This document shows positions 40,850 to 63,774 of a DNA stretch of 64,000 bases, piece after piece. The translations under genes and the position numbers were made by a program. Below the pieces are notes generated by a model, which had not been told where the DNA came from, did no database searches, and saw nothing but the letters and a program-made list of their open reading frames with translations. The DNA lies in contig NC_091112.1 in the NCBI RefSeq assembly GCF_024713975.1, positions 11,152,501 to 11,216,500 of the forward strand. Direction: 5' to 3'. Positions within the stretch are counted from its first letter, which is position 1. Every line of letters starts with the position of its first letter. The stretch comes from Paralichthys olivaceus. Taxonomy: Eukaryota; Chordata; Actinopteri; Pleuronectiformes; Paralichthyidae.

Positions 40850-41088
40850 CATTTGTCGTTTGTCATTTCTTCCAAATGTAACTTCCTTGTTCCGCTGAAC
40901 ATACGCGGCTGAGGCGCAGGCGAAACAAGAAACAGGAATTGATCCTCCAGCGACGCAAAGCCGGAGCAACAGGTTGGTCTGATCGGGTCTGTAGCTGAGC
41001 ACGTCGACCTCTTTAGGTTGAGTGGTTGTAAACTCACAACCGACGCACAACCAGCAGAGTAGACAGACACGTCCAGCCCCGTGGAAAG
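40850..41088 (+). promoter_or_regulatory. Promoter and 5' UTR exon of fucosyltransferase copy 1
   Basis: A CpG-richer patch ends at the donor GTGGAAAG|GTGAGA (intron starts 41089). The exon end, GTCCAGCCCCGTGGAAAG, resembles those before copies 2 (ATCCAGCCCTGGTACAGG then AAAG, ends 45816) and 4 (GTCCAGCCCTGATCCCGTCA then GCAAG, ends 51915). This supports one duplicated non-coding first exon. The exon start is not known. Confidence 0.6.
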
Positions 41089-42063: not shown

Positions 42064-43185
42064 ATGGCTCCCATTCCCACTTTTACTTTTTTGCGGGCAT
42101 TGCAGAAAGTGATCATTGTGCTAGCTGCAATCATAGTCCTCTTTTCAATGTACTATAAGTCTTTTCCATCTCCAACATGTCACCCTCCCCCAAAGGGACT
42201 GACAAAGCATACCAACACGTCAATGTCTACAACCACCCCAAGCAACCTCGCAGCGACGGAGAAGACTAACAAACCTGTTGTGCTGCTTTGGTTTTGGCCT
42301 GATGGAAAAAAATTTGATTTCAAACTCTGCAAGGATTTAAACATTAACAGCTGCCATCTGACAGATGATAGATCCCTCTACTCCAAAGCTAATGCAGTTG
42401 TGATGTTTCACAGAGATATCAAAGATGACCTGTCCAACCTTCCCACTACGCCAAGGCCCAAATTCCAAAGGTGGATCTGGTTTAACATGGACCCACCCAC
42501 CCGCACACGCAAGATACCAGGAATCGAAGCCTTTTTTAACGTAACCTTGAACTACAGGCGGGATTCAGACATCCCTGCTCGCTGGCAACTGACTGTCAAG
42601 AAGAAAATAGATGATGAATTTGAGCTGCCAAAAAAAGAGCTATTGGTTTGTTGGATTGTGAATAAAACTGACCTCCACACAAAAACAGAGGCTAGATACA
42701 GCTACTACCATGAGCTTGCAAAACATGTAAAAGTGAACATCTTTGACAGCTCCTCTGCCGAGAACTCGAAGGGTGAAAACTATTTCATAACCATTAGTAA
42801 ATGCAAGTTCTTCCTTTCCTTCGAGGATTCAATACACGCAGATTACATCACAGAAACATTCAATGGTCCTCTTTCAGCGGGCACTGTACCAATTGCTTTG
42901 GGCCCACCTAGAGCAAACTATGAGAATTTTTTCCCAAGTACTTCCTTCATACACATTAATGACTTTCCTGATGCCTTTGGACTGGCTGAGTATCTCCTCA
43001 AACTGGATGAGGATAATGAGGCTTATATGAAATACTTTCAATGGCGGCGATTCTATAATGTCAGACGCCATTTTACTGAGGAGAATCAAGAGTTTGCACA
43101 TGCTGTCTGTCAGGCATGTCGTCACATAGTCTTAACCAATGAGTACAGAGTAATACTTGATGTGTACAAGTGGTACTTAATTTGA
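42064..43185 (+). CDS. fut9-like: FUT9-like alpha-1,3-fucosyltransferase, copy 1
   Basis: Single coding exon, 373 aa. The acceptor TTTTCTTGCAG lies 7 bases before the chosen ATG; an upstream in-frame ATG exists at 41,944 but falls in the intron. GT10 Golgi enzymes add fucose from GDP-fucose to N-acetyllactosamine, making Lewis x-type glycans. Visible parts: short cytosolic N terminus, signal-anchor helix (about 13-34), Thr/Ser-rich stem, conserved WFWPDG, DRSLY, KFQRWIW, NYRRDSDI, CKFFLSFEDSIHADYITE and PPRANYENF blocks, and a C-terminal CQACRH..YK.Y tail like FUT9 (359 aa in human). It is the most diverged copy of the cluster. The lysine that follows the conserved glutamate in the donor motif (EK) is threonine here, so activity may be altered. 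FUT9 is the best family match; orthology to a named fish paralogue is not established. Confidence 0.88.
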   Translation: MAPIPTFTFLRALQKVIIVLAAIIVLFSMYYKSFPSPTCHPPPKGLTKHTNTSMSTTTPSNLAATEKTNKPVVLLWFWPDGKKFDFKLCKDLNINSCHLTDDRSLYSKANAVVMFHRDIKDDLSNLPTTPRPKFQRWIWFNMDPPTRTRKIPGIEAFFNVTLNYRRDSDIPARWQLTVKKKIDDEFELPKKELLVCWIVNKTDLHTKTEARYSYYHELAKHVKVNIFDSSSAENSKGENYFITISKCKFFLSFEDSIHADYITETFNGPLSAGTVPIALGPPRANYENFFPSTSFIHINDFPDAFGLAEYLLKLDEDNEAYMKYFQWRRFYNVRRHFTEENQEFAHAVCQACRHIVLTNEYRVILDVYKWYLI

Positions 43186-44333
43186 TTCTCTCATTTTCAT
43201 AGTTAAGCTTAAGATATGTCTAATCTTGCATGTGGGAATGCATTTCTTGCTCTGTAAGAGATTGACTCTTGTATATTTTTGCAATGTATCTATTTCTTTA
43301 ACAAACTGTTTTGTATGTTATTTCTGGAGTGCTTAATAAGTTCTTAATGAAGCTATATGCACTACAGGTCTAGTCTGGTCTACTTCATTTTTATTTCTCC
43401 CTGCAGTACACTCAAAAAGAAATTCACTGGTTCAACTTTGAGGTAACAACTTGTATGGATCATTTTAAGTAGTCAACTCTGGCATTGTTGAGTAAATGCT
43501 ACAAGTCTTTGACAGTCATTCTATCCCAATTACATTAAGCTTTCAAATTATTGCATTGAAGTTCCCCTAACTTCTTTACTTTATTAAAATCCTAATTTTT
43601 TTATATCAATTATTTGTGTAGCTACAGTAAGAACAACAAATAGCAATTCCAGTTTAATATGGTCAGACTTTTTATAGTAAACACTGTTCAAACAATTCTA
43701 ACCGTTAACAATTATGTTCACAAAATATACATGCCCAGCCACTTCCTACAATACTTGGAAAAAAATAATAAATGATGGTGCTTAGCTGGTTCCTCATCCC
43801 CAAATGAGATAGTCTTCATAAAAGGCCCTTTAGCAGCCATTTTCAGAAGTCACTGAAGGATAAACACAAGTGTGATGGTGTGATTTATAATGTAAATTAT
43901 GGCTCTGTTCTGTTTAGATGGGCCATGGACCTGGTATTACACATGCTCACTGGAGTGGCTTTGACTCACTAAATAAAATAGTACCATTATAATATTATCC
44001 CTGAGTTTACCCTTCTATGATGTGTCAAAATGACGGCAGGAAAATCAAACGTGCGTTTGAGTGCCTCAACTGAACACAGAGTCCAATATTTGTATGCTGT
44101 CACCATGAAATTGCCCTCAAACAAAACAAAACAAATATCATGGATTACATCCTGAACTTAATCCTGCTCTTATCATAGTCAAAAAGTAGAAAAAACCTCT
44201 GTCCAAGGTAACACAATTCAAAATAACAATCTTTACAATAAACTTGCAACTTAGTGTTAACAGTACAGCTGCTGTGTTTTAAACAACACCACAGTGCAAT
44301 ATTTCCTTGTGATTAGTTTTTTAGGACAGCAGT
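43186..44333. other. Spacer between copy 1 and the 44.3-kb gene fragment
   Basis: AT-rich. About 43,400-43,510 reads CACTGGTTCAACTTTGAGGT and TTTTAAGTAGTCAACTCTGG, the ACTCAA/TTGAGT-rich style of common teleost repeats. No exon seen. Confidence 0.45.
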
Positions 44334-44798
44334 CTATGACATTACCTCCGGGCTCGCCTTCAGACCATCTAGTCCAAGGAATATCTTTTGAAATACCTCA
44401 AATGTTTTCATCAGTTCTTTTGATTAGCTGAGGTGGAGCGCATATATCAGCCCATTAGCAAAGCACAGGCTCTTGGTACATTCAGGTCTTTCAGGACTTG
44501 TGTCCCCTTGATCACTATCTTTGCACGAGCTGTGTCAGACATTATGGCACCTCTGCTGATGACAATCTTCATCACCTCATCTGTAGCCTGCACTTCACTA
44601 TCCTGTAATAAGTAGGACGGAAAATATTTTAGTGTTTTAAGTCATCATATTTAAAAACGAGCAACACAAAGTACAGTGGACTGTTTGAACATTAGTGTTT
44701 CTTACCAAGTGCTCTTTGAAGAGGTCCTCCTCCTTTTCTCTGAGAAACACCACCAGATAACCGAGAGTGACCTCTCTCCTTCTTTCTACTGAATTATC
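44334..44798 (-). pseudogene. Fragment of a multi-copy, uncharacterised teleost gene family
   Basis: Two exon-like blocks on the minus strand, 44798-44706 and 44602-44334, each with proper AG and GT borders and in matching phase. The first reads like VERRREVTLGYLVVFLREKE; the second continues DSEVQATDEVMKI, later VLKDL, ALLMG, IYAL and KTFEVFQKIFLGLDG. Fish genomes carry many uncharacterised proteins ending in an IYALNLSYPKELKYTFEVFQ-like segment, and this matches that C-terminal part. The reading frame is broken in more than one place and no upstream exons were found. Function unknown; it may have spread with a mobile element. Confidence 0.5.
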
Positions 44799-45391
44799 CT
44801 GTGAACAAGAAATAATATTTTACAACTGCACATCCACAGAGTGAATAACATATTTTTATAGGCTTCGCGAATGTTAGTGTCGCCCTTGGGATTTTTCCAT
44901 TGGCTTTTGGATTATGCTCCAGGTTAACATGGCTTGACATCACTACCAATGCCAGCTTTAACTTAAAATGCAGTAAAACACTTATTCTCTTACCTTTGCA
45001 CTGGCAAAACCGACGCTACATAAGTTCAGTGCCACATAACGTAATTTTACTCCTGGCTCAGCTTGTTAGGCAAGCTGCAAACAGTAAGGGAGTGCATTTC
45101 TCAGTTGTTAGATGATGCAATCCTTTTGTTGATTTTTCAAGGGTTTTTTGACAGACAAAGAAAACAGGGCAGGTGTCAGTGATCCACTGAGAAAAAATGA
45201 CAGCCTACTAAGAAAGTATCCCACATTCTACAAGCATGGCAGTTCTAACTCTAACCCCAGGACAAAGTTTCTTTAGTAAAAGATTAACTTAAAATGAACC
45301 TCTTTAACAAGTGCTACTCCTCTGAGCAAAAGGCAAAAGGCTGATCCCCATTCCAGGTGCATGCTTTCACGTGTTGAGTTGCTTAAAGACA

Positions 45392-45550
45392 TGTGACAAA
45401 CTGCAATTACCAGTTTCTCAGTTTGTTGGTTACCTGTCAGGAGAATTTCAATAATCTACCAGGACCTGTTTGTCTTTGTCAGGCAACATCAGTGTTTTGA
45501 TAGGAGCACAAAACATGTGACAAACTGTAGTTACCGGTTTCTCAGTTTCT
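45392..45550. repeat. Pair of ~33-bp direct repeats
   Basis: ACATGTGACAAACTG followed by TTACC.GTTTCTCAGTTT occurs at about 45,392-45,425 and again at about 45,513-45,547 with a few differences, about 120 bp apart. It lies just upstream of the copy 2 first exon. Confidence 0.7.
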
Positions 45551-45656
45551 TGAGGTCAAATTTCCCCATGTTTGCATGTTGCATGCTGTGTGTGGGACCA
45601 TAAATGAGAGGAGGAAATAGGAGGAGGAATACTGTATACTGTACATGATAGGGAAA

Positions 45657-45694
45657 TGTCAACACATTGGTGGAGAACCACCAATGTGTTGACA
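45657..45694. repeat. Perfect 17-bp inverted repeat (hairpin)
   Basis: TGTCAACACATTGGTGG (45657-45673), a 4-base loop AGAA, and its exact reverse complement (45678-45694). It lies about 90 bp upstream of the copy 2 first-exon segment. Confidence 0.9.
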
Positions 45695-45739
45695 CACCGG
45701 TTTTCTTAGCTGGGTAAAAAGGTGTGGACATTGACTATT

Positions 45740-45816
45740 TTGGATGTATTCTTTAATCTACCTACAGAAGCTTGCCGGAGTAGCAGATACACACATCCAG
45801 CCCTGGTACAGGAAAG
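45740..45816 (+). promoter_or_regulatory. 5' UTR exon of fucosyltransferase copy 2
   Basis: A segment ending CCAGCCCTGGTACAGGAAAG with donor GTAAGG (intron starts 45817) matches the first-exon ends of copies 1 and 4. The start is uncertain. Confidence 0.5.
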
Positions 45817-46255
45817 GTAAGGGAAAAAAATTATGTCACTTGTATTGAATTTTTTTATATAGAAACTACATTTAATGTTCTGTAATCTAATCTTATCCCT
45901 CATATAAACATATAAACTGTGAACAAGCATAGGACTTTCATCAAGTGAATGTTGAGTCAGTATTTTTTATTATTTGTCTGATGATGAACAAACTATTATG
46001 AATTTATACTGACAGAAATAATGGATACTGAAGGAAAGAAGTCAAGGGGTCAATTAGACTGGAATTTATAATCATGAGAAATATTAAATAGAGTGTGGAT
46101 CATTTTTGTGAGTGTCTAGTTTTTTTAACTTCCATTTATAGCCACAGTCTGTTCATGTAGTTATGAGCTGCAGTGATAGAATAAGAAAGTAAAAGCATTT
46201 GCTGATATGATGCTGTTATCAAACAGATGACTGATGTTTCTTTGTTCTTCCACAG

Positions 46256-47058
46256 ATGATACAATCCTTCAGTAAAACTTTTTTCCTGGCAAACTTGGCT
46301 GGTGTTGGCCTTATCTGCTGCTTTATTTCCTTCTTTCTATATTTTGAACCTGAATCCACTTTGTGTCCATCTACATCCGGTCATGGAAAAGCTAATGAAG
46401 AGCCACTACCTGAAAAGCCTATTGTCCTGCTTTGGTTCTGGCCTCTTGGTGTGAGGTTTGATTTGAATTCCTGCTTGCCTCACTACAACATTGATAGCCC
46501 AAGAAAGACAAACTGGTGTGTTGGATTGTCAGTAACAACAACCCAGCTACTGGAACAGCTTCAAGAGAGAAATATTACAGAGAACTGTCCCAACACATAA
46601 AGATTGATGTCTTTGGTGTTGCTTTTACAGGGCACCAATTAGAATATGAAGACTATTACCCAACCCTCGCTAGTTGTAAATTTTATCTCTCATTTGAGAA
46701 CTCGCTCCACAAAGACTACTTCGTAGAGAAGGTCAACGGGCCCCTCGTAGCAGGGGCGGTCCCTGTAGTTCTGGGTCCACCAAGAGAAAACTATGAGCAG
46801 TTCCTTCCCAGGGGTTCCTTTATTCATGTAAATGATTTCCCTGATGCTAAAGGACTGGCAGAGTTTCTGCAAGGCCTGGACAAGGATCATGATGCATACA
46901 TGAGTTACTTTGAGTGGAGAAAGCATTATGAAGTCATTCTTCATCTTTTGACAATATACAATGAATTCATTCATCCTATCTGCCTCGCCTGTGACCACAT
47001 CTCAAAATACAAAGAATACCATGTTATCAATGATCTTTATGGGTGGTACTTTTCATGA
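46256..47058 (+). pseudogene. FUT9-like fucosyltransferase, copy 2 (deleted)
   Basis: Acceptor TTCCACAG abuts the ATG as in copies 3 and 4. The N-terminal anchor, stem and FWPLGVRFDL block are intact. At about 46,498 the sequence jumps from the equivalent of 53,644 to 53,925 in copy 4. The 280 bases lost encode DRSLY, the RPYFQKWIW block and YRRDADI, and because 280 is not a multiple of three the frame shifts and soon stops. The rest of the catalytic domain ([31 protein letters not shown], the C-terminal tail to the stop at 47058) survives in the other frame. The junction shares GC between both sides, which fits end joining. No functional enzyme is expected. A poly(A) signal remains at 47480-47485. 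Confidence 0.9.
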
Positions 47059-48160
47059 AAACTACAAAAGCAAAAGTCCAGCTCCATTCATTCAGCAGAC
47101 ACTGGTTTAATCTGTCTTCACTTGCCGCCTATTTATGATTCGTTCAGATGATCCAGTAGGACCAGTTGAGATGGAGACAAAGATGCTTCAGACTGTTTCA
47201 GTGCAGAATTTGCTTTGAATTTTCTGTCATGTAAAATCTTCATTCTTGTTTTCTTTAAGTGTTTTACAACAGTCAACAGTGGAGGAAAGGTTGCTGCATT
47301 GGTGCTAGGTTTAAATATGAGTTGTTTTGGTTGATCTAGATAGGACTAATAGATAAGTAAACATGTGACTATCTACCACCATCTATGAATTTTACAGGGT
47401 CATGTTGAATTATGCTGTTACATTGGTTTCACTTTGTAGATGTAATACTTTTACTTAGTTTATTACTTTATCAAACTGAAATAAAGGTACCCGAATGTTA
47501 TTTTATTTCTCTTTGATAGTTTGATAGGTTTTTCTATCAGGGGTATTTGTACAAATCAACAAAACCCTTTATGAATAATAAAGGGTAATAAAGGGAGCTT
47601 CCTCATTTCAAGGATGACTTTGTATTTCTCAATCTGGATGTTCGGAAATTATCACAACCAGAGCATCAATTGTTTTAAAGTCAATCTGCTCAACTGCCTA
47701 GTAGAGCATTGATTAGTCAAATTAGTGGCTGGGGCATCAGCACATGGGCCCAGCAGAATATCTACACACATATTTGCAGCAACAGTGCCTCCATCGCCAA
47801 GGGCTCCTGACAGATGTGGAGTGAATTCATTTTTTGCAATTGTAAATTCTGTGACTTCTTCAGAGTTTACACATTAGATCCACATTTTATACTTCTCTGT
47901 AACCCTTAAGGTGTTTTCTAACCACACCAGATAAAATAATGGAGATATCATACTCAGAGGAGACATAGCACAGCTTTTAGTGTTCTTTTTGCCAAAAGAG
48001 AAAATTAGATCATCTGGGACTTTAAGCCGAAATCACCCTGCTTTATGCAGTTTTTAAAAAGCATTATGAAAAACGGACAGAAAGCTGAATACGATAACAC
48101 AGAAATGTCATTAATATTAACTCATAGGTTTTTCTTTTTAAGAATCATCTTAAATAAAGA
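47059..48160. other. Copy 2 3' UTR and flank, shared with copy 4
   Basis: The first ~325 bases (to about 47,384) are almost identical to the 3' flank of copy 4 (54,485-54,804). Further out, the segment near 47,720-47,780 (GGGGCATCAGCAC..GCCCAGCAGAATATC) also resembles the copy 3 flank near 51,150-51,210. No other gene is seen. Confidence 0.75.
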
Positions 48161-48169
48161 AACTATGAT

Positions 48170-48440
48170 GTAGCGGGCGCACAGCTCTTCCAGGATGCGG
48201 TGCACGCGGGCCACACAGCCGAGAGGTTTGCGGTAGCTATGGTGCAGACGACGGACGTTCATTTCACGCTCGGAGCGAATCTCGAGGGACTGAGCCCGAG
48301 TTTCGGGAGTAAAGCGGACTTCTTCCCCAGAGGACCCGGACTCATTCGCATTGAGAGAGACGAGCGACCCGCGGAGGCACAACGATCACATGGTCAACAG
48401 CTGAGACGCTGAAGCAACTGGCAGCAATACTGACGCAGCA
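48170..48440. promoter_or_regulatory. CpG-rich patch upstream of copy 3
   Basis: A GC- and CpG-rich island in AT-rich DNA, between copies 2 and 3. The minus strand has an 86-codon open frame (48,382-48,122) beginning at a TTG, with a methionine only further in; I recognise no family. By position it may be the promoter of copy 3, comparable to the CpG-rich stretches before copies 1 and 4. Confidence 0.35.
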
Positions 48441-48881
48441 GCGGAGCGATCCAAGGGAGTGATGGGGCATTTCTCTCTGCTTATATAGACTGCCTAATAA
48501 GGTGGGTGTGTGTTATAGATGATTGTGGAGAGAGCGAGGTATGTCACATGATGTACATCACGTGATTGGAGCAGCTCAGCTCAAATTGGCTGCCTGAACT
48601 AGCTCGCAGGCGTCGCTCCATTTTTGGTTCCAAGCAGTGTTTGATTTTGTGTATCATGACATATCCATGTGGTGGCGTTTCCGGCATGTGAGGAAACATC
48701 GAAAACGTGTAAAGCAGTGATTAAAACTGGGTTGTCCTGTTGGCACAGGAGTGGCACCTGCATCTTTTTTTCAGTGCTCAAGTGGCTGGACAATAAAAGA
48801 GCCCCACCTTGTGCTGGTACTCTGAGAAAGGTGAGAACAGCATTTTTTGATGCTTTCTGTCCTGTTAACATGTCAAAATTA

Positions 48882-49396
48882 TGGAGCTTTTCAGACTTTC
48901 GGTTTGACAGCATGACTTGTTGACTTTGTGTTCAGATTGTGTATTACTAGTATGCAAATAGCCTCTGTTTGCACTTACATTTTCTCTGCTTCTGCTCAAA
49001 CTGTGATTTCTCCTCAGCTCTTGGAGGTTTTTTGTGCGACGACACTCTCAAAATTCCCTGTCCAATAGAATGCCAGGTGAAGTGTTGGCAGGGTTGTTTC
49101 ACCAAAATGTCCAAGAGCAGACAATTCACAAGTGTACAGAAAGCAGCCCAAAGTGTGGAGAAGCGCTGAAGCTTGGAGCGCAGTAAATCTGTGCAAGCAA
49201 CAATATAGCTGAGTGCAAGCACACAGTTTGAGCAGAAGCAGAGCAAATCTAAGTGCAAACAGGAGCTATTTGAGTGCAAGGGTACTTAGATTGTGCATTA
49301 CGATACACAATCTGAACATAAATACGTCATGCAATAAGTCATGCTCTCAAACTGAAAGACCACGCTCTTGAATAAAGATAAAAAAAAGCTCCACAC
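48882..49396. mobile_element. Foldback-like element with ~130-bp inverted arms
   Basis: The left arm (about 48,882-49,016) and the reverse complement of the right arm (about 49,200-49,396) share, in order, TGGAGCTTTT, GTTTGA.AGCATGACTT, GTTCAGATTGTGTAT, CAAATAGC.CCTGTTTGCACTTA and CTCTGCTTCTGCTCAAACTG. The centre is about 185 bp. No coding frame. It sits within the presumed 5' intron of fucosyltransferase copy 3. Confidence 0.75.
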
Positions 49397-49545
49397 AAAA
49401 TAACAACGACAAATAAAGTAAAAGTAGTGGAGTGTTTGTAGGTTACGCCAGTGTACTTGTTCGTTTTGGTAGAAGTCTGTTTTCTGGTTTGATTCCATGA
49501 TCATGATATGGATGATCACAACAATTTCTTTCTCTGTTTTCACAG

Positions 49546-50637
49546 ATGAGAGCATCTTTCAGTAAAACTTCGTTCCTCGCAAAGGTAGCTGCTCTTGGCC
49601 TCATCTGCTCTACTGTTGCCTTCTTTATATATTTTGAGCCTCCAGCTTCTTTGTGTCTGCCTACGTCCACATTGGCTGAGAACAAAACTGATGAAGCCCC
49701 AGAGCCAGCTGAAAAGCCCATTGTCCTGCTGTGGTTCTGGCCTATTGGTGTAGTGTTTGATTTAAAAAAATGTGAAACCCACTTCAACATTACTAGCTGC
49801 ATACTAACTGCTGACAGATCACTGTACAGCCAAGCAGATGGAGTCATTTTCTATCATAAAGACATCTCCTGGGGTTTAGACAACTTGCCTCAGGAGCCAC
49901 GTCCATATTTTCAGAAGTGGATTTGGTACAATGTGGAATCTCCCACGAACACGGCAAAGAAACCAGGTCTGGAAAACCTGTTCAACTTAACACTGAGCTA
50001 CAGACGAGATGCTGACATCACAGTGAGGAATGAGGTGACGATCAAGAAAACAGAGACAGAGGAGGAATTTGTTCTGCCCAAGAAAGACAAACTGGTGTGT
50101 TGGATTGTCAGTAACAACAACCCAGCTACTGGAACAGCTGCGAGAGAGACATATTACAGAGAACTGTCCCAACACATACAGATTGATGTCTTTGGTGTTG
50201 CGTTTACAGGGTACGCATTAGAATTTGAAAAGTATTACCCAACACTTGAGAGTTGTAAATTTTATCTCTCATTTGAGAACTCGCTCCACAAAGACTACTT
50301 CGTAGAGAAGGTCAACGGGCCCCTCGTAGCAGGGGCAGTCCCTGTAGTTATGGGTCCACCAAGAGAAAACTATGAGCAGTTCCTTCCCAGTGGTTCCTTT
50401 ATTCACGTAAATGATTTCCCTGATGCTAAAGGACTGGCAGAGTTTCTGCAAGGCCTGGACAAGGATCATGATGCATACATGAGTTACTTTGAGTGGAGAA
50501 AGCACTATAAAGTCACCCCTCATCTTTTGTCAATGAGCAATGAATTCATTCATCCTGTCTGCCTCGCCTGTGACCACATCTCAAAATACACAGAATACCA
50601 TGTTATCAATGATCTTTATGGGTGGTACTTTTCATGA
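49546..50637 (+). CDS. fut9-like: FUT9-like alpha-1,3-fucosyltransferase, copy 3
   Basis: Single coding exon, 363 aa, starting immediately after acceptor TTTTCACAG. Type II Golgi membrane layout: residues 1-9 cytosolic, anchor helix about 10-30, short stem, GT10 catalytic domain from about residue 60. Landmarks: [56 protein letters not shown] with FENS at 243-246, [31 protein letters not shown], and LACDHISKY near the end, matching the human FUT9 C-terminal pattern LACDHVKRH. The donor-motif E and K are present, but the surrounding YITEKLYNAF of human FUT9 reads [10 protein letters not shown]. From about 49,981 to the stop it is almost identical to copy 4. A poly(A) signal lies at 50888-50893. 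A possible first exon ends at 48830 (TCTGAGAAAG|GTGAGA), less certain than for the other copies. Confidence 0.92.
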
Positions 50638-50887
50638 AAACTACAAAAACACAAACTAGAACGTTTACTTTGAATTTGTGTGATGCTTTGACATTTTATA
50701 GAGTAATGATTTCATTCACATGGTAACGACTGATATTGTTATCAGTTTAATTTGTTATGTAGATCACTCTAAGTACAGATGGGACTTTGTGAGTAAACAT
50801 TGCATAGTAAAACTGAGCTGATGAGAATAGTGTTGCAAATGTTCTTGGCTCTGAGTTGCCTTGAGTTGTTTTGCATACATATAGACA

Positions 50888-50893
50888 AATAAA
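50888..50893 (+). terminator. Polyadenylation signal of copy 3
   Basis: AATAAA 251 bases after the copy 3 stop codon. Confidence 0.5.
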
Positions 50894-51639
50894 CAAGTAT
50901 TCACATCCAAATATATATATATATATATGTAACTTTTATTGGGGTCATTTGGATGATTGTCTTATATTTATTTTTACTTTGTTTATAGGTACTTCATTTG
51001 ATATTTTTTTCTGTTCTATTGATTGTTCTTCCATCAGGGATATTTGAGCGAACCAACATAGCAGTTTGTGAAATATAAAGACTACAAGTGAGTGTCCAGT
51101 TTCTAAAGTTACTTAGTTTTACTTTATGTTTTCTACTGAGTAGTGTTAGGTGGGGCATCAGTTGCATAGATCCAGCAGAATATCAGCACACTCATATTAC
51201 AAGCAGCTATCATTTTACAACTCTAATGGACAAGCCTGTACTTTACACCCGCTTTACATAGTTTTACTTTAAAATGACCTTGCCAACACCATTTGGTGGG
51301 GGGGGGTCTTGTAGATCAGAAATTACGCTCATGAACCGGTACAGTGAATTCCCTGTATTAAAACACCATTATGGGTCAATTCAGACGTTTGACTATATTC
51401 CCGAGATTATGAAGGGGCACTGAATGCATCATGAACTCCGTGTCCGCCCACAGGTGCAGCCGTAAAAAGCCATGTTGACGCACTGAAGGTTTTAAGGTCG
51501 TTTGCAGGTTTTCTCTGAAGTGAAGTGTAGTTTGTCTTTCAAACGGCCACATGGTAGAAATTATTGGCACTTTTTCAAAAACTTAACCGAGGGGTACGAC
51601 ATTTCCACAGTAGGCGCTCTATTGTCCGTTATGCTTACG

Positions 51640-51915
51640 CAGAATTTATTAAAATAACTTATTGCTCATGTCTTAGTGGAAATTTCCGCTTCCGCCTGAA
51701 GCCCCCGCCTGCATCTGTGAGAACAGTTGTCTGCGTCCTGAGCGTTAGTCCGAATCGCACCGTTAATTCTGAGGGACGACGCTGTCGATAGTGTGTGTGC
51801 AAACAACGAGCGGAAATATTGTTCGTGTGGTTGTGTCTCCGGTTGTGTTTTTTAAACCTGTATTCCGGTGACAGACCACCAGAGAGAGGTGTCCAGCCCT
51901 GATCCCGTCAGCAAG
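51640..51915 (+). promoter_or_regulatory. Promoter and 5' UTR exon of fucosyltransferase copy 4
   Basis: CpG-richer sequence ending in GTCCAGCCCTGATCCCGTCA then GCAAG with donor GTGAGA (intron starts 51916). It corresponds to the first-exon ends of copies 1 and 2. Transcription start unknown. Confidence 0.55.
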
Positions 51916-52260
51916 GTGAGAACCCGTTTCTTCTCAGTGGTGATCGTGGTAAATAAATGATGAATAAATGACATATGGCAGGTAGGAAGTCGTTTTAGCT
52001 GATGACCTGTGTTCTGACCCCTTCAATATCATTTCAACTATGTGTGTGGCGTCTTCCTTTCGGGTCAGAGCAGTCCAGAGCGCTTCGCAAATGACAGATG
52101 AGCCACAAATTAGACAAAGCTATTGAAGGTGCTGACAATGAAATGCAGCAAAATAGATTTTAAAAGATAGATTAGTCATCTAAAATGTGATAAAATGACT
52201 AAAGATAGAAAATCCAAGGCACACATTTACCACCGAGAGATAATCCTTATATGTGAATAG

Positions 52261-52886
52261 TAGTGCTGGGCAACCAATAATATTTTTAACCACGATTAAT
52301 CGAATGATTTTCTGTGATTAACTGTGATTAATCGCACACATCTTTTACATATAAGTGAATTAATTTATATTCATTTAATAATTGTTTAATTGTTAAATTT
52401 GATTTATTAATTGTTTGTTATGTGCAAAATTCAATAATGAATTCAGAAGTAGTATACCGCACACTTTTATTAAAAGCACTTCTATTTAAATAAATGTCCA
52501 AAAACATTTGCTTTGCAAATAATAAATAGTCACAATCATACCAACTGAACAGGAACCTTATGAGCAACAGCAAAGTTAGCAGTTATAAGTCTGTTTCCTT
52601 TTTTTTCTTAACAACTAACACCCTTTCAGTGATGCAAGATGAGTAGTTACACCATGACAAAATAAATAAATAGGTACAGGACCTGCAAAAAAAAAAATCT
52701 TTCACAGAGTACAGATGTTGCAGATGTGGCAAATTCAGCCTCGCAGTGATGCTAATAGTGTTTGTCTTTTCAATGCTACCCATTCCACGTGTATGAAAAC
52801 ATAAAGACACAGCGGGACTGGGTGCTTGGTTACCAGTGTTGCCAGCTTTTTGCTTTCAATGGCCGAGCAGCTAAAGCCAGCACTTG
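52261..52886. mobile_element. Probable hAT-like repeat with GATTAATCG motifs in copy 4 intron
   Basis: Begins TAGTGCTGGGCAACC and runs into ACGATTAATCGAATGA and GTGATTAATCGCAC, a sequence style abundant in teleosts. A possible partner terminus, CCAGCACTT, ends near 52,886. The flanking 8-mers do not match, so the right boundary is doubtful. Confidence 0.45.
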
Positions 52887-53392
52887 ATAAGCTGCTAGAT
52901 AACATGGCTTTACTTTTGCATTAGCGACATCACATTGTTACTGCTGTATTGACGTTGAACCTTTGTATTGGTTTTTGAAAGTCTAGCTTACATATTATGA
53001 TCAGGATAACACAAGGCACATTTTTGAATACTGTGGAGGTGAACCCTTGTACATAGAGAAACATAAAATGCTTCGGACATGTACTGAGCTCCAGATCATT
53101 TTAGGAGATTATCAAGAGATTATGTATGTAAGAACACATATTTCAGAGTTTGCCGTGCCAATGCCCCAGTAAACACTTTAGATAGTCTATGAATGAGCTC
53201 ATGTGAGAACACAGCAAGAGATTCTAAAATGTAACAGACACAAAACTGAAAAAAACTAAGAGAATACAACTACTGTATCTCAGGATGAAAAAGTTGCAAA
53301 ACTATGATGGGACATTCACTGCCTGTGTCATTACTGAAACCATTATGCTGTTTGCTAATGAGATGACATCAGTTTTTCTTTTCCTTCCACAG

Positions 53393-54484
53393 ATGATAGC
53401 ATCTTTAAATAAAACTTCATGCCTGGCAAAGGTAGCTACACTTGGCCTTGTCTGCTGTGTTGTTGCCTTCTTTGTACATTTCAAGCCTCCATCTCCTGTG
53501 TGTCAGACTTTGTCTACAGTAGCTGATGAAAGAATCAATGAAGCCATAGAGTTACCTGAAAAGCCCATTGTTCTGCTGTGGCTCTGGCCTCTTGGTGTGA
53601 GGTTTAATTTCCAAATTTGCTCAAGCTACTTCAACATTGATAGCTGCACACTGACTGATGACAGATCACTGTACAGCCAAGCAGAGGGAGTCATTTTCTT
53701 CCATAAAGACATAAACTGGCATTTAATCAACATGCCCAAGGAGCCACGTCCATATTTTCAGAAGTGGATTTGGTTCCATGTGGAATCTCCGACCAACACA
53801 TTGAAGATTCCAGGTCTGGAAAAGCTGTTCAACTTAACGCTGAGCTACAGACGAGATGCTGACATCACAGTGAGGAATGAGGTCACGATCAAGAAAACAG
53901 AGACAGAGGAGGAATTTGTTCTGCCCAAGAAAGACAAACTGGTGTGTTGGATTGTCAGTAACAACAACCCAGCTACTGGAACAGCTTCAAGAGAGAAATA
54001 TTACAGAGAACTGTCCCAACACATAAAGATTAATGTCTTTGGTGCTGCTTTTAATGGACACCAATTGAAATATGAAGACTATTACCCAACCCTCGCAAGT
54101 TGTAAATTTTATCTCTCGTTTGAGAACTCGCTCCACAAAGACTACTTCGTAGAGAAGGTCAACGGGCCCCTCGTAGCAGGGGCGGTCCCTGTAGTTCTGG
54201 GTCCACCAAGAGAAAACTATGAGCAGTTCCTTCCCAGGGGTTCCTTTATTCATGTAAATGATTTCCCTGATGCTAAAGGACTGGCAGAGTTTCTGCAAGG
54301 CCTGGACAAGGATCATGATGCATACATGAGTTACTTTGAGTGGAGAAAGCATTATAAAGTCACCCCTCATCTTTTGTCAATGAGCAATGAATTCATTCAT
54401 CCTATCTGCCTCGCCTGTGACCACATCTCAAAATACAAAGAATACCATGTTATCAATGATCTTTATGGGTGGTACTTTTCATGA
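53393..54484 (+). CDS. fut9-like: FUT9-like alpha-1,3-fucosyltransferase, copy 4
   Basis: Single coding exon, 363 aa. The ATG directly follows acceptor CCTTCCACAG; the in-frame ATGs upstream (from 53,285) lie in the intron. Anchor helix about 10-31 ([20 protein letters not shown]), then stem and GT10 domain with [57 protein letters not shown] and PPRENYEQF. It differs from copy 3 mainly in the first half. The second half matches copy 3, and the 3' flank instead matches copy 2, so the copy is a mosaic. The expected product is a Golgi alpha-1,3-fucosyltransferase acting on lactosamine termini; the acceptor cannot be predicted. Confidence 0.92.
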
Positions 54485-54798
54485 AAACTACAAAAGCAAA
54501 AGTCCAGCTCCATTCATTCAGCAGACACTGGTTTAATCTGTCTTCACTTGCCGCCTATTTATGATTCGTTCAGATGATCCAGTAGGACCAGTTGAGATGG
54601 AGACAAAGATGCTTCAGACTGTTTCAGTGCAGAATTTGCTTTGAATTTTCTGTCATGTAAAATCTTCATTCTTGTTTTCTTTAAGTGTTTTACAACAGTC
54701 AACAGTGGAGGAAAGGTTGCTGCATTGGTGCTAGGTTTAAATATGAGTTGTTTTGGTTGATCTAGATAGGACTAATAGATAAGTAAACATGTCACTAT

Positions 54799-54867
54799 CT
54801 ACCATCTCAAAATACAAAGAATACCATGTTATCAATGATCTTTATGGGTGGTGCTTTTCATGAAAAC
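54799..54867 (+). pseudogene. Duplicated 3' end of a fucosyltransferase gene
   Basis: From ATCTCAAAATACAAAGAATA through GGGTGGTGCTTTTCATGAAA this repeats the last 20 or so codons and stop of copy 4, joined directly to the copy 4 3' flank. It is a 3' fragment left by unequal exchange or partial duplication, with a Tyr-to-Cys change near the end. Confidence 0.85.
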
Positions 54868-55479
54868 TACAGTCAGAACATCATCTGACTGAACACAATG
54901 AGACCATTTACCCTCAATTTAAAAAATTTTTTTCTTCTTTTTGTCCATCAAAGTGTACCCTCTGTACTCAACAGTGGAGGTAAAAATTTAGTGCTGGAGC
55001 TGAGGAAGATAGATGCTGCTGCAAATTCACTGGGGTCAAATATGTGATCGACAAATGGGACCCGTCTGATTCGAATTGGAAGCAAGTTCAATTATTATTT
55101 TACATTTATTTTAGGTTTGCTTTGTTTCAAATTTCATAATAATCATAATCATTTTAAATTTTGAATACCATTTTAATGTTTTTTGGTGTTTTGTGCAGAT
55201 TTAACATCAGCAGTATTGATACGGGCTGTGTTAATAAAAGGGTAGGGGAAGCTAAATACTCTGGTGAGAGGCCAAAGTCCACTTTTTCATGAAAAGGTGA
55301 GGCAAACAGGTGTGGTTTTACAGCACTAGTTTCATTGTGTCATGTTCCTGAAGTAACCTGGTTACATTTGGCTGATGGAAATGTGAATGTCTTGTTTGCA
55401 AACTTTTACCATCGTACAATTTATATTAACACCATGTGCTTTTGTGTGCAGAAGTGAACCCTGTTAATGTTGTTATCAC

Positions 55480-55610
55480 CGCACAGCTTATAAACTGGCA
55501 TATGAACAACATGGCTAAGGAGCCGTGTCCATCTTTTGACATCTGACACCACGAAGAAACTGGTTCTGGATAACAATGAGCTACAGATGCACAGCTTCAC
55601 AGTCACTGTT
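55480..55610 (+). pseudogene. Eroded internal fragment of a fifth fucosyltransferase copy
   Basis: Reads like AACTGGCATATGAACAACAT, GGCTAAGGAGCC.TGTCCAT, then CTGGTTCTGGATAACAATGA and GAGCTACAGATGCACAG. These line up with the copy 4 segment encoding [15 protein letters not shown] and [17 protein letters not shown]. It has short deletions and stops and no coding potential. Confidence 0.6.
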
Positions 55611-57925: not shown

Positions 57926-60900
57926 ATGTGCTCCAGCCGCAAGATCCTGTGGAGCCTGCTCTTGCTGTCCGTGTTGGAGGTGGGCCTGGGTGTGGCGAGC
58001 ATCGTCCTGGGAGCCGTGGGCATCAGCAGGGTCCGGGGAGAGCACAAGCCGCAGCAGGGCGACGCGTCCCCGGTGTGGAGCGGGCTCTGTGTACGTCCTG
58101 CATGGGAACAACTCTTCTCCTCACTTCTTACCTTGTTGTCAGAGAGGATGAGTATGGATGTGGATTAAACTCTATTAAGCGCTGTAAAAATTCAAAAGAA
58201 CATGTAGAGTATAGGTGTTCACTACTGTAAGTATCAAAACTAGTCGTTATAGGTTCATATTCAGTATATTAATTTTAAAATAACTTTATTTTCCGTGGTC
58301 CTACGAGTCATAACCAGTTTTGGATTGAGGAGGATTAAATTGATTTATGTTAATGCTGTTGGCTGTTTATCTAATATTAATCACTCTTTCCCTTTTTATA
58401 CACAACAGCCTCTCAGTATTAATAACCTGGCTGTGGGTAAAGAGTAAATATTATGGCTGCCAGCCCTCTATGTGGCTTTGTGTGTTTGTCCATTAGATGT
58501 TGGAGACACACAGTCATTTGGTCCACTGTAGATGCCTCTGTACTGGAGCCAAAGATTGGTTTCATTAATTTATGCTTGAATTGTTGCTCTGTGCTCAGGG
58601 AGGGTAAAAGCATTTTACGCACAATCATCCTCTCACTGCTCTGCATACCTCTCCCCCTGTTGTAGAGCCGCTGGCAGCCTCACTGTCTTCATTTTGATGC
58701 TGAACAAACAAAGGTTGAGTTTTCTTTTTGATACCAAAAATGTTTTGATACCAATATTGGCTGATGTAAACTTTGGCAATTATTCCTAAAATGTCGTTGT
58801 CAAAACTTCATGACAAAGAAATGTAAATTAGACTTGATATTTTACAGTGTAACCATAAACTTTATTATAAATAACTATAAATATAAAGAAAACACAAATT
58901 TAACCAAATATAAACCTTGAAACAAGAAATTAAAAAAAAAATTCAGATAAAATGTTTTTTGCATCGCAGTGTTTTGTTAAACTGTGAAAGGGCATATAGG
59001 CCAATATTATCGGCCACCTGATATATCTGTCGAGTTATTATTGAATCAGCTACTATGCTACTCCCACTGGGGAACTAAGAATTTCACATGCAATATGAGC
59101 CATAAAAAAGCATGCATCTTTTTTTTTTTTGCAAAGTTCAGAGATTCTAATTTTAGTGTAAATTTGTAAGTGTGAAGGAAACCAAGAGGAGAGATATTAG
59201 AGATGTGACATTGTTGCGCTCCCACAGTGCTGTGTGTAAAATTGCTGTTATGCAATGTGATGTCTATGTGTGTTGAACCTCACAGCTGTTGAGTGCTGTT
59301 TGCTGAGTCAGCTGCCCGGGTCTCATGATCATCCAGAGGTTTAGATCTCCTGTCAGGACCTGCGAGTCATTGAGACTGATTGAACGCTGTCCCCAAAGGA
59401 GGCTGGATAATCACTTTTAAGTTTCCTGCTGAGAGTAAAGAGACTGTCGATCATTTCAAATCATCATCATTTCAGGCCACGAAACGTTAAAGTTATAAAG
59501 AATTTTATGCTCAGTTTATTTTAAATTAGTGCCAAATAAGAATGAAATTCAGTTTTCTGAATGGCTCACTTCTTGAAGGTAGGTCAAACCTGAAAAATCT
59601 TGGACTGTGTTTTGTATTATATCTAAAGATGTCAACAATATAGATAAAATGAGTTGGGATTAGTTTCTGCAAAACTGTAAATACTGAAATAACAGTAAAA
59701 GTTGATGAGGAACTCCCATTGAAATTGTACTTTTATATCTTTCAATACAAGTAAGAGAAAAAAGTAAGTGCACCTATAGTCACTCTTATAAAAGGTCATT
59801 TTAAACTACAACATATTGAGAGTGGAAGGAGTGACATCAAACACACACACACACTGCGCCGAACGTTTCATCAAAACCAGCCCACTCTGATGTCCCACTT
59901 TTAAGTGCACTCTGTCAGCACAATACACCACTGTGCTGCTCCAGTTCAGTCTGAATCACTGATACAGGACAACATGGCTTCCTGATGGAAGCTCACACTG
60001 TTATTTTCTTTGAGGGAGAGAAGTGCATCTGAGTGAGCGGGTGTAAGGAACACCTTCACCCTTCCTGTTGTCGGGACAGGGAGGAGCAACCCACCAAAAC
60101 ATTTAAAATTTAATACCATTTCTTAATAGGTGACTTTTCCTCAGTGACAGGAACTTTTGGAACTGTTCCATTTGTTCATGTGTCTTCCTCTCTTTCCAGT
60201 TCCTGGTCTGTGGGATGTGCGGAGTGTTGTGTGCTCGAAAGAGGACGGGTCTTATTGTAAGTACTTAAAGCTATTTTGTTCCCCTATGATCCTCTTTTCT
60301 TATTCTCACCTCCTGTTTTAAATGAATAGTTCATATTCATAGCTCATATCGGCTACAGCCAGAATATGATCCGCTTAGCTTAATTTAGCTTGGCACATTT
60401 TTATGGACCATTTGATGGAAAGTGTGGGCGAGCCATTTCTTTCTTTTGAAGCAAAGATAAGGCTGTAAATTAATTTTATCAAGATATGTAATGATAATAT
60501 TCCTCCAACATTTCATTGCTTCAGACAAATGGACACTCGCCCAAGTTGCAATTTAATGTTGGTGCATTTTAGGCATGTCATTTTTTCTGACTTTCATCTT
60601 TTTTTGCTTGAATCTGAAGTAGTTGCATTTGTTCACATCAAACTGATCAAACTTAAACCCTCATCGTCTGAAGAGTTTTAAAGCCAATTCATCCATAAAA
60701 TAATGCACCACTGTTGTCAGTGTCCACTGTTTCATGATGCTAAACCAAATCCATTAGGTGAGACAAAGGAGCCTGTGAGGGAGCCTGGAAACCCAAATCA
60801 TTATTTATCATTTGTTTTCATCTGTATTTGTTTGTTAGTTTGTCAATTGGTTGGATTACACAAAAACTACTGGACAGAATAGTACAAAACTAGTGTTAAG

Positions 60901-63774
60901 GCAGTTAGGGTCAGGGAGGAAACTATCACATTTCAGTGTGGATCCAGATGAGCATAGCTGTCAACTAAAACCTGAGAGGTTTCCTTAGAAAGATGATACG
61001 CATTAAGTACTGTTAATAGAAAACAATATAATTATGTGGTGTGTGCTTCCCATGTCAAAGTCATATACTAATCAAAATACATTCATGTGAAGTGTAGATA
61101 CTGTAAATCTATAAGCATGTAGTCTGACAGTTGCAACCTGTCACTCACAACACACACAAGCCGCCACTGGAGGTTTATAAGTAAAGACAGTCTAATTATG
61201 TCAAACACCCGAAGGTGTCTGTGTGTGTGATTGTGTGATTGTTTGTGTGTGTGTGTGTGTATGTGTGTGTGTCGTCCTCTCATCATGTGCCTCCTCTGAG
61301 CTCTAAAAGAGACGTGTGAGGAAACCAGAGAAGACAGCCAGTCACCTCTCCGCCTCTCTTTCTGTCGCTTTGTCCCTCCAGCGATCGCTTCACATTCTTT
61401 CAGTGACTGCAAGTCCTCGTGTTTCCCTCCTACTGTCTCTGTCTCCTGTGGGGAGGGCGTGATGGATCAGTGTCAGTCTGCTGTAACAGAGCCATCCCTC
61501 AACCTTCCCCTCCCTCTGCCTCCATCTGTCCATCCCCAACTATTGTCTCTGTCGCCATCCTACCCTCTCGCTTTTTCCCCCTCTTTCATTAATCGCATCC
61601 ATCTCTATACCTTCTTCTACCTAGTCCTTTTGATGCTCTGCCCCGCTCCATCTTCCTCTCCTCATTCCTCCTTCCATCCGCTCCCGCCATGTTTGCCTGT
61701 GGAGTGATGATTGCATTAGGTTGGTTTGGCTCCAGACTCCTGCCAGCCGCTTTCCACACTTCAGCGGATAATGACTGAAACTGGAGATGCCCTTTTCCAT
61801 GCAGTTAAAGGCACTAAAGGAATCTGTGCAGGGAGCAATGAAAGAGAACCTGCATCCAGTCACAATACACACACACACACACACACACATGCATCCACAA
61901 TTGATGGGGACTAGAATATAATTGAATTGATTTCATTTGATTATTCTGATTGCAAGGTAAAGGAATTGCAATCATCACTCCATCAGATCCTCTTGGAAAA
62001 CAATCCGATCATCCTACTGAGTCTGAGTTTTCCAGCTATTGATAATAAGAAGAACGTACTGTAAACCCACAATAATTGATTAAATACTGAAAGTAAAACC
62101 TCACCAACAATCTACACAAATCAGACACACACACACACACAGGCACAAATACAGCAAGTGAGTGATGGCCGCATATTTACAAGCAGGGCAATATTTCTGG
62201 AGGAGACTGTACTTTGGGAGCAATCCAATTTTCTAATAGGAAATGAGATTTATTTTGACTGATGCACATTCCCCATCACAGCAGCCATCACCCAAAACAA
62301 CAAAATGATGGAGATGGAAGATCAGTAGCAGTTTGTTTATCTCACATCTCCTCACATTTTGTCAGTTTGTTTACAGTTTTGTTGATAGCATGTCAATTTT
62401 ACCGTCAGCGTTGACTCTGACTCTTCTTCCTCTTCCAGATGATCCTGTTTTCAGCGTGCTGTATCTGCGGTCTTATTGGTGGGATCCTCAACTTCCAGTT
62501 TGTTCGGGCACTGAACAAACGGCCGGACTCAATGCACTCGATCCACCTGGCTGCCATGACACTGGCCGGTTTGGGTAAACTAAAAATAACAATAACACCA
62601 CACGACAAACCCCATGTTAGATTGCCATAAAACATAACTAGAAAGTTCATATTTATAAGTGTATACATGCCTATCCTAGTTTTAAAAAGTTTTGCCTTTT
62701 ACATGACCAAAAAAACATTTATAACATGTTTTGAGTTAATCAAGCAGTCAGTGATATGGGTATATGAGTATTTTCACCTCAACACTTTAGTAAATAAATA
62801 CCAGTCTGGATTTTTTTTTAATTCAAACAGCCAGGGCTTGTGATGTCACAAATCTTTATTTCTGTCACCCCAGCCCCATCTTTCCACTACTGACGGTGAA
62901 TATAATTAAAATAACCAATAATTGCCACACAGACAATCCAGGGCTTTATAGGGACAACCAGATATTCCAGGTTGGTAAATCAACCTTGCATCAAACAACT
63001 GCCTTCAAGTCAAAATCCAACGAGTCAGTCCCCCTTATCACTAAATAACTATGAAAGAAAGATGGGACAGTCCACACTTCCTGTAAAATTCAGTTCTTTA
63101 ACCAGCTGGTTTTCCTCTTCCTGTCTTTTCCAGGCATCTCATCATGTACCTTATCGACGTGGCTGACCTGTCGCCTCGCCAGCTCTGAGCAGCAGAGGAT
63201 GTTCCTTGAGAGGGAGCACTCACTGCACCACTCGCACGAGATGACCGAGAAGGTAAGACAGCAGCATCAATGGAAACAATGGCAACTGCAATAGCCCTCG
63301 GTAGAGCACTTACCTCCACCATGGCCCAACTGTCCCCTTATGAAACCACAATTTGATTTAATAGATCCAGAGTTTTTTTTTGATCGGCACCATTCATAAG
63401 TATTAGTCCAGGAAACACATCTGATTTTTTATTTTATTATTCTGTGAGAAATCAATGAAAATTTACAAACACACTGTATCTCACAATGTTAAAGAAAGAG
63501 AAATTCCTGGATCCGCTACCCGATCCGGATTTAAACCAAAATGGAATAGATTATTCGCTGACCAGCATTGCATCCTTCCACCAAGTTTTTGCATAATGAA
63601 AACATTATCTCGCAGGTGAAGGTAACAATGGTGTGTACCTCCAACATAAGTTGTCAGTTGTATTTGAAGTTATCAAGTGTGCTCGCATGTTCCCCTTAAC
63701 AGGAGATCCTGGACAACTCCAGCAACGGCATCCCTCAGATCTCCTACAACGGACACACCACAGCATCACCATGA
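57926..63774 (+). CDS. tmem196: Transmembrane protein 196
   Basis: Five coding exons: 57926-58090, 60200-60256, 62439-62574, 63134-63252, 63703-63774. All junctions are GT-AG with closing phases (549 nt, 182 aa). The start [20 protein letters not shown] matches the TMEM196 N terminus. Further matches are REHKPQ.GD.SPVWSG at the end of exon 1, LCGIC-like [13 protein letters not shown] in exon 2, [20 protein letters not shown] in exon 3 and LTCRLAS.EQ..MF.EREHS in exon 4. Four hydrophobic segments are visible (about 9-32, 53-68, 76-95 and a fourth across the exon 3-4 junction). The C terminus ([16 protein letters not shown]) is cytosolic-like. It is a small four-pass membrane protein whose molecular function is not settled. 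It is divergent from itgb8, as TMEM196 and ITGB8 are in human. Teleosts may have two copies; which one this is cannot be decided. Confidence 0.94.
58730..59040. repeat. Probable MITE with CCAATATT/GGCC ends in tmem196 intron 1
   Basis: Left part TTGATACCAATATTGGCTGA and right part TAGGCCAATATTATCGGCCA with CCTGATATATC have the (A)TATCGGCC style of a common teleost MITE; the inverted ends are imperfect. Confidence 0.4.
60815..60965 (+). repeat. Teleost interspersed repeat (GCGCAAAAACTA family), copy 3
   Basis: TTTGTTTGTTAGTTTGTCAA, TTGGATTACACAAAAACTAC, then GTCAGGGAGGAAACTATCAC and GTGGATCCAGATGA: a decayed relative of copies at 30,029 and 63,295. In tmem196 intron 2. Confidence 0.5.
63295..63605 (-). 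repeat. Teleost interspersed repeat (GCGCAAAAACTA family), copy 4
   Basis: On the minus strand it reads GCAAAAACTTGGTGGAAGGA, GGTCAGCGAATAATCTATTC, AAATCCGGATCGGGTAGCGG, ATCCAGGAATTTCTCTTTCT, and ends in a GGTGGAGGTAAGTGCTC-like segment. It is the longest copy in the window and lies in tmem196 intron 4. Confidence 0.65.

Follow-up and report, generated by a model that had tools for sequence, protein, structure and literature searches.

A tandem array of FUT9-group GT10 genes with changed signature residues between itgb8 and tmem196 in Paralichthys olivaceus

A stretch of 64,000 nucleotides of the Paralichthys olivaceus genome (C20:11152501-11216500, here called the window) carries a tandem array of glycosyltransferase family 10 (GT10) genes, which we take to be an old lineage of the FUT9 group. 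Positions without a contig name refer to the window; the genome searched comprised 588 Mb in 25 contigs. As the initial annotation had described, three open genes, one broken copy and two fragments lie between itgb8 and tmem196, all on the plus strand. The open coding exons are those of gene A (42064-43185, 373 codons), gene C (49546-50637, 363 codons), and gene D (53393-54484, 363 amino acids, with a B-like 3′ part from about 53923). All three scored above the curated Pfam cut-offs for both PF17039 and PF00852, which places them in GT10. Gene B (46256-47058) is broken into a 5′ piece (46256-46497) and a 3′ piece in another frame (46498-47058), of which the latter matched PF00852 alone. At the junction of the two pieces, B is missing 280 bp that its intact relative B′ has; B′ is located in an inverted copy beyond tmem196. 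The fragments are (i) an orphan gene tail of 69 bp (54803-54871; 98.6% to the end of D, E = 8.5e-28) and (ii) a 48-bp relic of a further copy (55490-55537; 83% to D at 53711-53758, E = 5.6e-8). The relic reached a local score of 56, whereas the highest of 200 shuffles scored 34; none of five other intergenic stretches exceeded its own shuffles in the same test.

A genome-wide search with PF00852 gave 19 matches, 15 of them intact single-exon frames: one on contig C12, seven on C23, one each on C11, C18, and C4, and four on C20 (A, C, D, and B′, hereafter the open array genes). The other four matches were B, a copy of A cut by a run of N (A′), a fragment with stops on C7, and one on C9. The C7 fragment (C7:23603066-23603525) is a dispersed C-type GT10 remnant in three pieces (71-75% to C). 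A protein search with C returned at least 24 matching stretches, including a further short piece at C20:16969088. Viral and prokaryote genome contigs yielded 2 and 39 pattern matches, respectively, none of which was confirmed. The C12 gene, which is 61.6% identical to FUT9, has a GH99 gene about 7 kb away, and GH99/MANEA neighbours FUT9 in human. The array, lying between itgb8 and tmem196, does not share this synteny. On C23 (C23:5255269-5286992), seven intact FUT9-group genes are arranged in tandem, flanked by an APAF-1-like gene and by kinase-like/DEP-domain genes. Like the C20 array, they belong to the FUT9 group, stand in tandem and have an open single coding exon; unlike it, they have other neighbours, keep most of the active-site signature, and are much younger copies (pairwise synonymous divergence, dS, 0.013-0.065).

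The phylogenetic tree comprised 19 rows (the 15 fish frames and four human sequences, with FUT3, FUT4, and FUT7 of human in provisional form), and the program warned of meeting long branches and of the unusual make-up of FUT4 and FUT7. A, B′, C, and D formed one clade with support of 100/100, in which A branches first, and the C23 genes formed another, also with 100/100. Both fell into a FUT9 group of 13 rows (array, C23, C12, and human FUT9; 100/99). An origin of the array copies from different GT10 subfamilies was thereby rejected, and the expectation that they belong to a single subfamily was borne out. C11 was nearest to FUT4, weakly (61/86), whereas C18 and C4 grouped with FUT7 (99/99). 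Joining the array to FUT3 was rejected by the approximately unbiased (AU) test (p = 0.0003). In its location, the array is separate from the fut9 gene that this fish has on C12. In the tree, a grouping of array, C12, and FUT9 received support of 33/0, and neither alternative was rejected (AU p = 0.43 for each).

The open array genes differ from all other intact GT10 genes of this genome at signature residues, numbered here as in human FUT9 with an offset that we assume. Y168-G169 was kept in all 11 other intact fish genes and all four human sequences, but in none of the four open array genes, being replaced by WQ in A and by NE in B′, C, and D. Likewise, H109 was kept in 11 of 11 other fish genes and lost in four of four in the array. 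E137, R202, N246, E255, and K256 of FUT9 are presumably donor or catalytic contacts. Of these, E137, N246, E255, and K256 were present in all 11 other fish genes and the four human sequences. B′, C, and D retain all five, with T254 changed to V. A has D137, D246, and T256 instead of E, N, and K and is, given these changes, probably inactive or strongly altered. In terms of motifs, HH[R/W]D became [F/Y]HKD and VPYG became VRNE in B′, C, and D. Because residues of the acceptor-side signature were lost in all four open array genes, a Lewis-type activity of the array appears doubtful.

PMC8433944 gives FxL/VxFENS/TxxxxYxTEK as the alpha1,3-fucosyltransferase motif. Read by eye, it was matched in full by none of the four open array genes (two departures each in A and B′, one each in C and D), but by nine of the 11 other intact fish genes (C11 and C4 with one departure each). 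TEK and FEN/IEN occurred in all five GT10 sequences of the PDB listing. Motif II, [F/I/V]HH[R/W][E/D], is linked to lactosamine recognition in alpha1,3/4-fucosyltransferases in PMC11949838. It was unmatched throughout the array (MFHRD in A, FFHKD in B′, FYHKD in C, and FFHKD in D), with departures among the 11 others in C18 (HN), C4 (HHQE), and four C23 genes (HHVN). The remaining three C23 copies have W at the residue after HH (HHWD), where the other four have V. At this site, the human FUT3 sequence also has W. We further defined 61 reference columns that are invariant in eight GT10 sequences (four fish and four human, three of the latter in provisional form). A breaks 16 of them, B′ 8, C 9, and D 8, compared with 4-6 in the seven C23 genes; seven columns are broken in all array members (stem branch 0.56) and four in all C23 members (stem 0.73). 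The C23 array was not accepted as a simple longer-branched control, since just its stem is longer and its tip paths are shorter.

Among known structures, FUT9 (8d0o) was the best PDB match for A, for C, and for a three-gene profile (E = 6.7e-107 for the profile). The array resembles FUT9 in its length after TEK, where FUT3, FUT4, and FUT7 have an extra residue, and in its single coding exon near the acceptor, a layout also found in human FUT9. It differs from FUT9 in its lower identity in the catalytic part (45-50%, against 61.6% for C12 fut9), in the loss of HH and PYG, in V for T254 in B′, C, and D, and in the changes at E137, N246, and K256 in A. The human FUT3-FUT5-FUT6 genes likewise form a tandem GT10 cluster, and FUT3 has W for R of FUT9 in motif II; the array, however, lies on the opposite side of the 100/99 branch from FUT3, to which it could not be joined. 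The protein of each open array gene has a membrane helix, or a stretch resembling one, at its N-terminus, followed by a stem and the catalytic part of GT10. An AlphaFold2 (AF2) model of C built from 15 sequences of the window and genome had a mean predicted local distance difference test (pLDDT) value of 74.2, a predicted template modelling (pTM) score of 0.65, and an N-terminal helix at residues 7-29, which would fit a type II membrane protein. The model of A, from three sequences, reached a pLDDT of 37.7.

We read the 3′ halves of B, C, and D, which encode the donor domain, as homogenised by gene conversion. A tract of 882 bp in D (53923-54804) is 98% identical to B (46497-47378), both on the plus strand, whereas upstream of it B and D are only 72% identical. 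Over 320 bp past the stop codon, a single base differs between B and D. In D, the shared tract ends abruptly at the 69-bp second gene tail, followed by different sequence. We read this tail as a remnant of the former 3′ end of D, whose 3′ part would have been converted, presumably in this direction, from a B-type gene, the right end of the event being illegitimate. A simple tandem copy of the D tail was rejected, because the second tail precedes different sequence. A simple deletion also fails as a full account of B, since the 98% tract shared with D, the abrupt end at the orphan tail, and the 72% identity of the 5′ parts demand a further event. dS was computed by codon segment for the pairs B′/C, B′/D, and C/D. 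It amounted to 0.225-0.238 in codons 57-170 in all three pairs, 0.13-0.32 in codons 201-250, and 0.014-0.059 in codons 251-363, so homogenisation of the donor half is uneven. Between C and D, silent changes differed between codons 1-160 and 251-363 (Fisher p = 0.003, with counts rounded down to whole changes). A patch of 29 bp in which B differs from both C and D at eight sites suggests more than one conversion event.

Ratios of nonsynonymous to synonymous divergence (dN/dS) were calculated for the same pairs, for the whole gene and by segment. Whole-gene values were 0.57 (B′/C), 0.64 (B′/D), and 0.63 (C/D), with upper bounds below 1. In the anchor and stem they were 0.82-1.18, with wide intervals including 1, and the value of 2.12 for codons 251-363 of B′/D (interval 0.51-3.59) derives from one silent change. 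Positive selection was rejected, as no segment was significantly above 1. Comparing A with B′, C, or D gave a dN of 0.44-0.45 with saturated dS; because of this saturation, A is, by this measure, much older than B, C, and D. These values show constraint on the coding sequence, less strict between the young copies. The initial annotation had suggested that Lewis-type glycan genes expanding in this way may be under pathogen or mucosal selection. Since no whole-gene dN/dS exceeded 1, pathogen-driven diversification found no support here.

Part of the array (42149-48657, plus strand) recurs on the minus strand at C20:11240350-11247500 (87850-95000 on the window scale), which holds A′ and the intact B′. 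Over window positions 43206-48657, the two halves differ by 43 mismatches in 5316 aligned bases (0.81%) and by gaps of 280 (in B), 120, 77, and 54 bp. Identity in the A part is 99.34% (1061 bases), and B′ differs from the two pieces of B at 2 of 242 and 4 of 558 positions. In A′, a run of A is one base shorter, which breaks the frame, and the stop codon is changed at its first base; three of the four substitutions in the compared coding part are silent. A run of exactly 5000 N (window-scale 95001-100000; C20:11247501-11252500) cuts A′, and 356 bp between A′ and the rest of the inverted copy are without a match. It is quite possible, although we lean slightly against it, that the inverted copy is a misplaced other haplotype, in which case the broken B would be an allele; this bears on the A′-B′ copy alone. 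The low mismatch rate and the ending of the copy in the 5000-N run would agree with such an origin. Its reversed order and its position about 24 kb past the final match to tmem196, the large gaps, and the unmatched 356 bp argue against it.

All array genes had been proposed to share one layout (non-coding first exon, intron, and single coding exon at or near the acceptor) and to have arisen by segmental tandem duplication without retroposition. The coding-exon part of this proposal held: an acceptor-like CAG lies 0-7 bases upstream of the ATG in all four array genes and also in C12 fut9, and about 8 bases upstream in six of the seven C23 genes (the seventh stretch is too short to judge). Retroposition was rejected as the likely origin of the copies, as this putative acceptor adjoins the ATG in four of four array genes. 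Candidate ends of a non-coding exon 1, resembling one another, were located on the plus strand for A (41019-41088, donor 41089), B (45747-45816, donor 45817), and D (51846-51915, donor 51916). The 70-nt stretches before the candidate donors were compared in six pairs against 105 background donors. For A/B, A/D, and B/D, 0-4 of the 105 reached the score of the pair; for the three pairs with C, which were thus at background, 27-57 did. One common first exon for all four genes therefore fails for C. Furthermore, growth was not by tandem duplication alone, as gene conversion and the inverted segmental copy appear to have contributed. The presumed intron of C contains an inverted repeat (48896-49005 and 49222-49358; 74% over 137 bp).

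To the left of the array, the minus strand carries itgb8, with Pfam integrin domains found as far left as 14869; for one exon, the nine top-ranking PDB chains were all integrin beta-8. On the right, tmem196 was located on the plus strand (57926-63753) by five ordered matches to a provisional human query, the weakest with E = 0.011. Further left than itgb8, an open frame with C2H2 fingers in Pfam (7685-8932) is Sp8-like. Between it and the itgb8 stretch at 14869 lies a gap of about 6 kb, probably too small for an intact abcb5, given the size of that gene. Between 27 and 41.9 kb there is no large open coding exon, since the longest stop-free stretch has 142 codons (among stretches of at least 62 codons and normal complexity; no MACC1 query was run). 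In PMC3655950, a figure legend names TMEM196, MACC1, ITGB8, ABCB5, and SP8 as neighbours, and a table gives a value of 0 for ABCB5 in medaka, fugu, stickleback, Tetraodon, tilapia, and cod.

Taken together, the array represents a local family of the FUT9 group, away from the fut9 locus, that appears to have grown by tandem duplication, inverted duplication, and gene conversion. We see about an even chance that this lineage has a changed acceptor side and that B′, C, and D are GDP-fucose enzymes with another acceptor or low activity. Under this interpretation, the acceptor side would have changed before A split from B, C, and D, and A would have lost more afterwards. B′, C, and D would be enzymes, presumably of the Golgi, that use GDP-fucose as donor and either accept substrates different from plain type II lactosamine or transfer weakly. 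In B, C, and D, gene conversion would hold much of the donor half in common, and the N-terminal halves would diverge. In GT-B enzymes, the donor is bound in the C-terminal and the acceptor in the N-terminal region, according to PMC8433944. A more far-reaching version, which we regard as somewhat doubtful, would make the array a GT10 subfamily of the fish lineage whose acceptor pocket was rebuilt (VRNE and [F/Y]HKD for VPYG and HHRD), with a novel acceptor, a donor half kept by conversion, a diversifying acceptor half, and A as a pseudoenzyme. Several observations weigh against a changed acceptor side. Measured from the node of the FUT9 group, summed branch lengths to the tips are about 1.0-1.26 for the array and about 0.77-0.85 for C23, so divergence alone accounts for part of the extra losses. 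Departures at single motif residues also occur elsewhere (LENS in C11, SEK in C4, and HN at 109-110 in C18), and P167 of PYG is lost in all seven C23 genes. A dN/dS of 0.57-0.64 between recent copies would also fit slow decay. Moreover, the contact and active-site roles of Y168, H109, E137, N246, and K256 are presumed.

It is unlikely, in our view, that the genes are ordinary teleost FUT9 copies making Lewis x-type glycans, with the losses tolerated and dosage or tissue-specific expression added. FUT9 as the best PDB match, the retention of E137, N246, E255, and K256 in B′, C, and D, and the moderately confident model of C would all be expected of such copies, and a FUT9 expansion to 24 genes is described for Lagocephalus sceleratus in PMC8692874. 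Against it, all four open array genes have lost YG and the initial H of motif II, both of which are present in each of the 11 others, including the C23 genes. Quite unlikely, too, is a decaying side branch of former fucosyltransferases that are losing function while conversion merely slows their divergence. The broken B, the two fragments, A′ with its N cut, frame break, and changed stop, the C7 fragment with stops, the altered E137, N246, and K256 of A, and a dN/dS near 0.6 between recent copies would fit this history. Against it stand reading frames open across 360-373 codons in A, B′, C, and D, the long-term constraint between A and the rest, and the mostly silent coding substitutions between A and A′.

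Our literature search, partial in coverage with subscription papers mostly outside it and one query too broad, turned up no study of this locus, none that dissects an array of this kind, and none of conversion in GT10 arrays of fish. Lagocephalus sceleratus resembles this fish in having many FUT9-annotated copies in a single genome, for which the text covered of PMC8692874 gives a gene count without locus, residue, or conversion analysis. Expansion of FUT9 in fish is thus already known from that count; the new element would be a lineage with changed acceptor-side signatures. Within one species, P. olivaceus combines a conserved single fut9, a young array with most of the signature, and an old array in which key residues are lost. 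With this contrast it can be tested which GT10 residues determine the acceptor, and whether such arrays diversify through conversion of donor halves.

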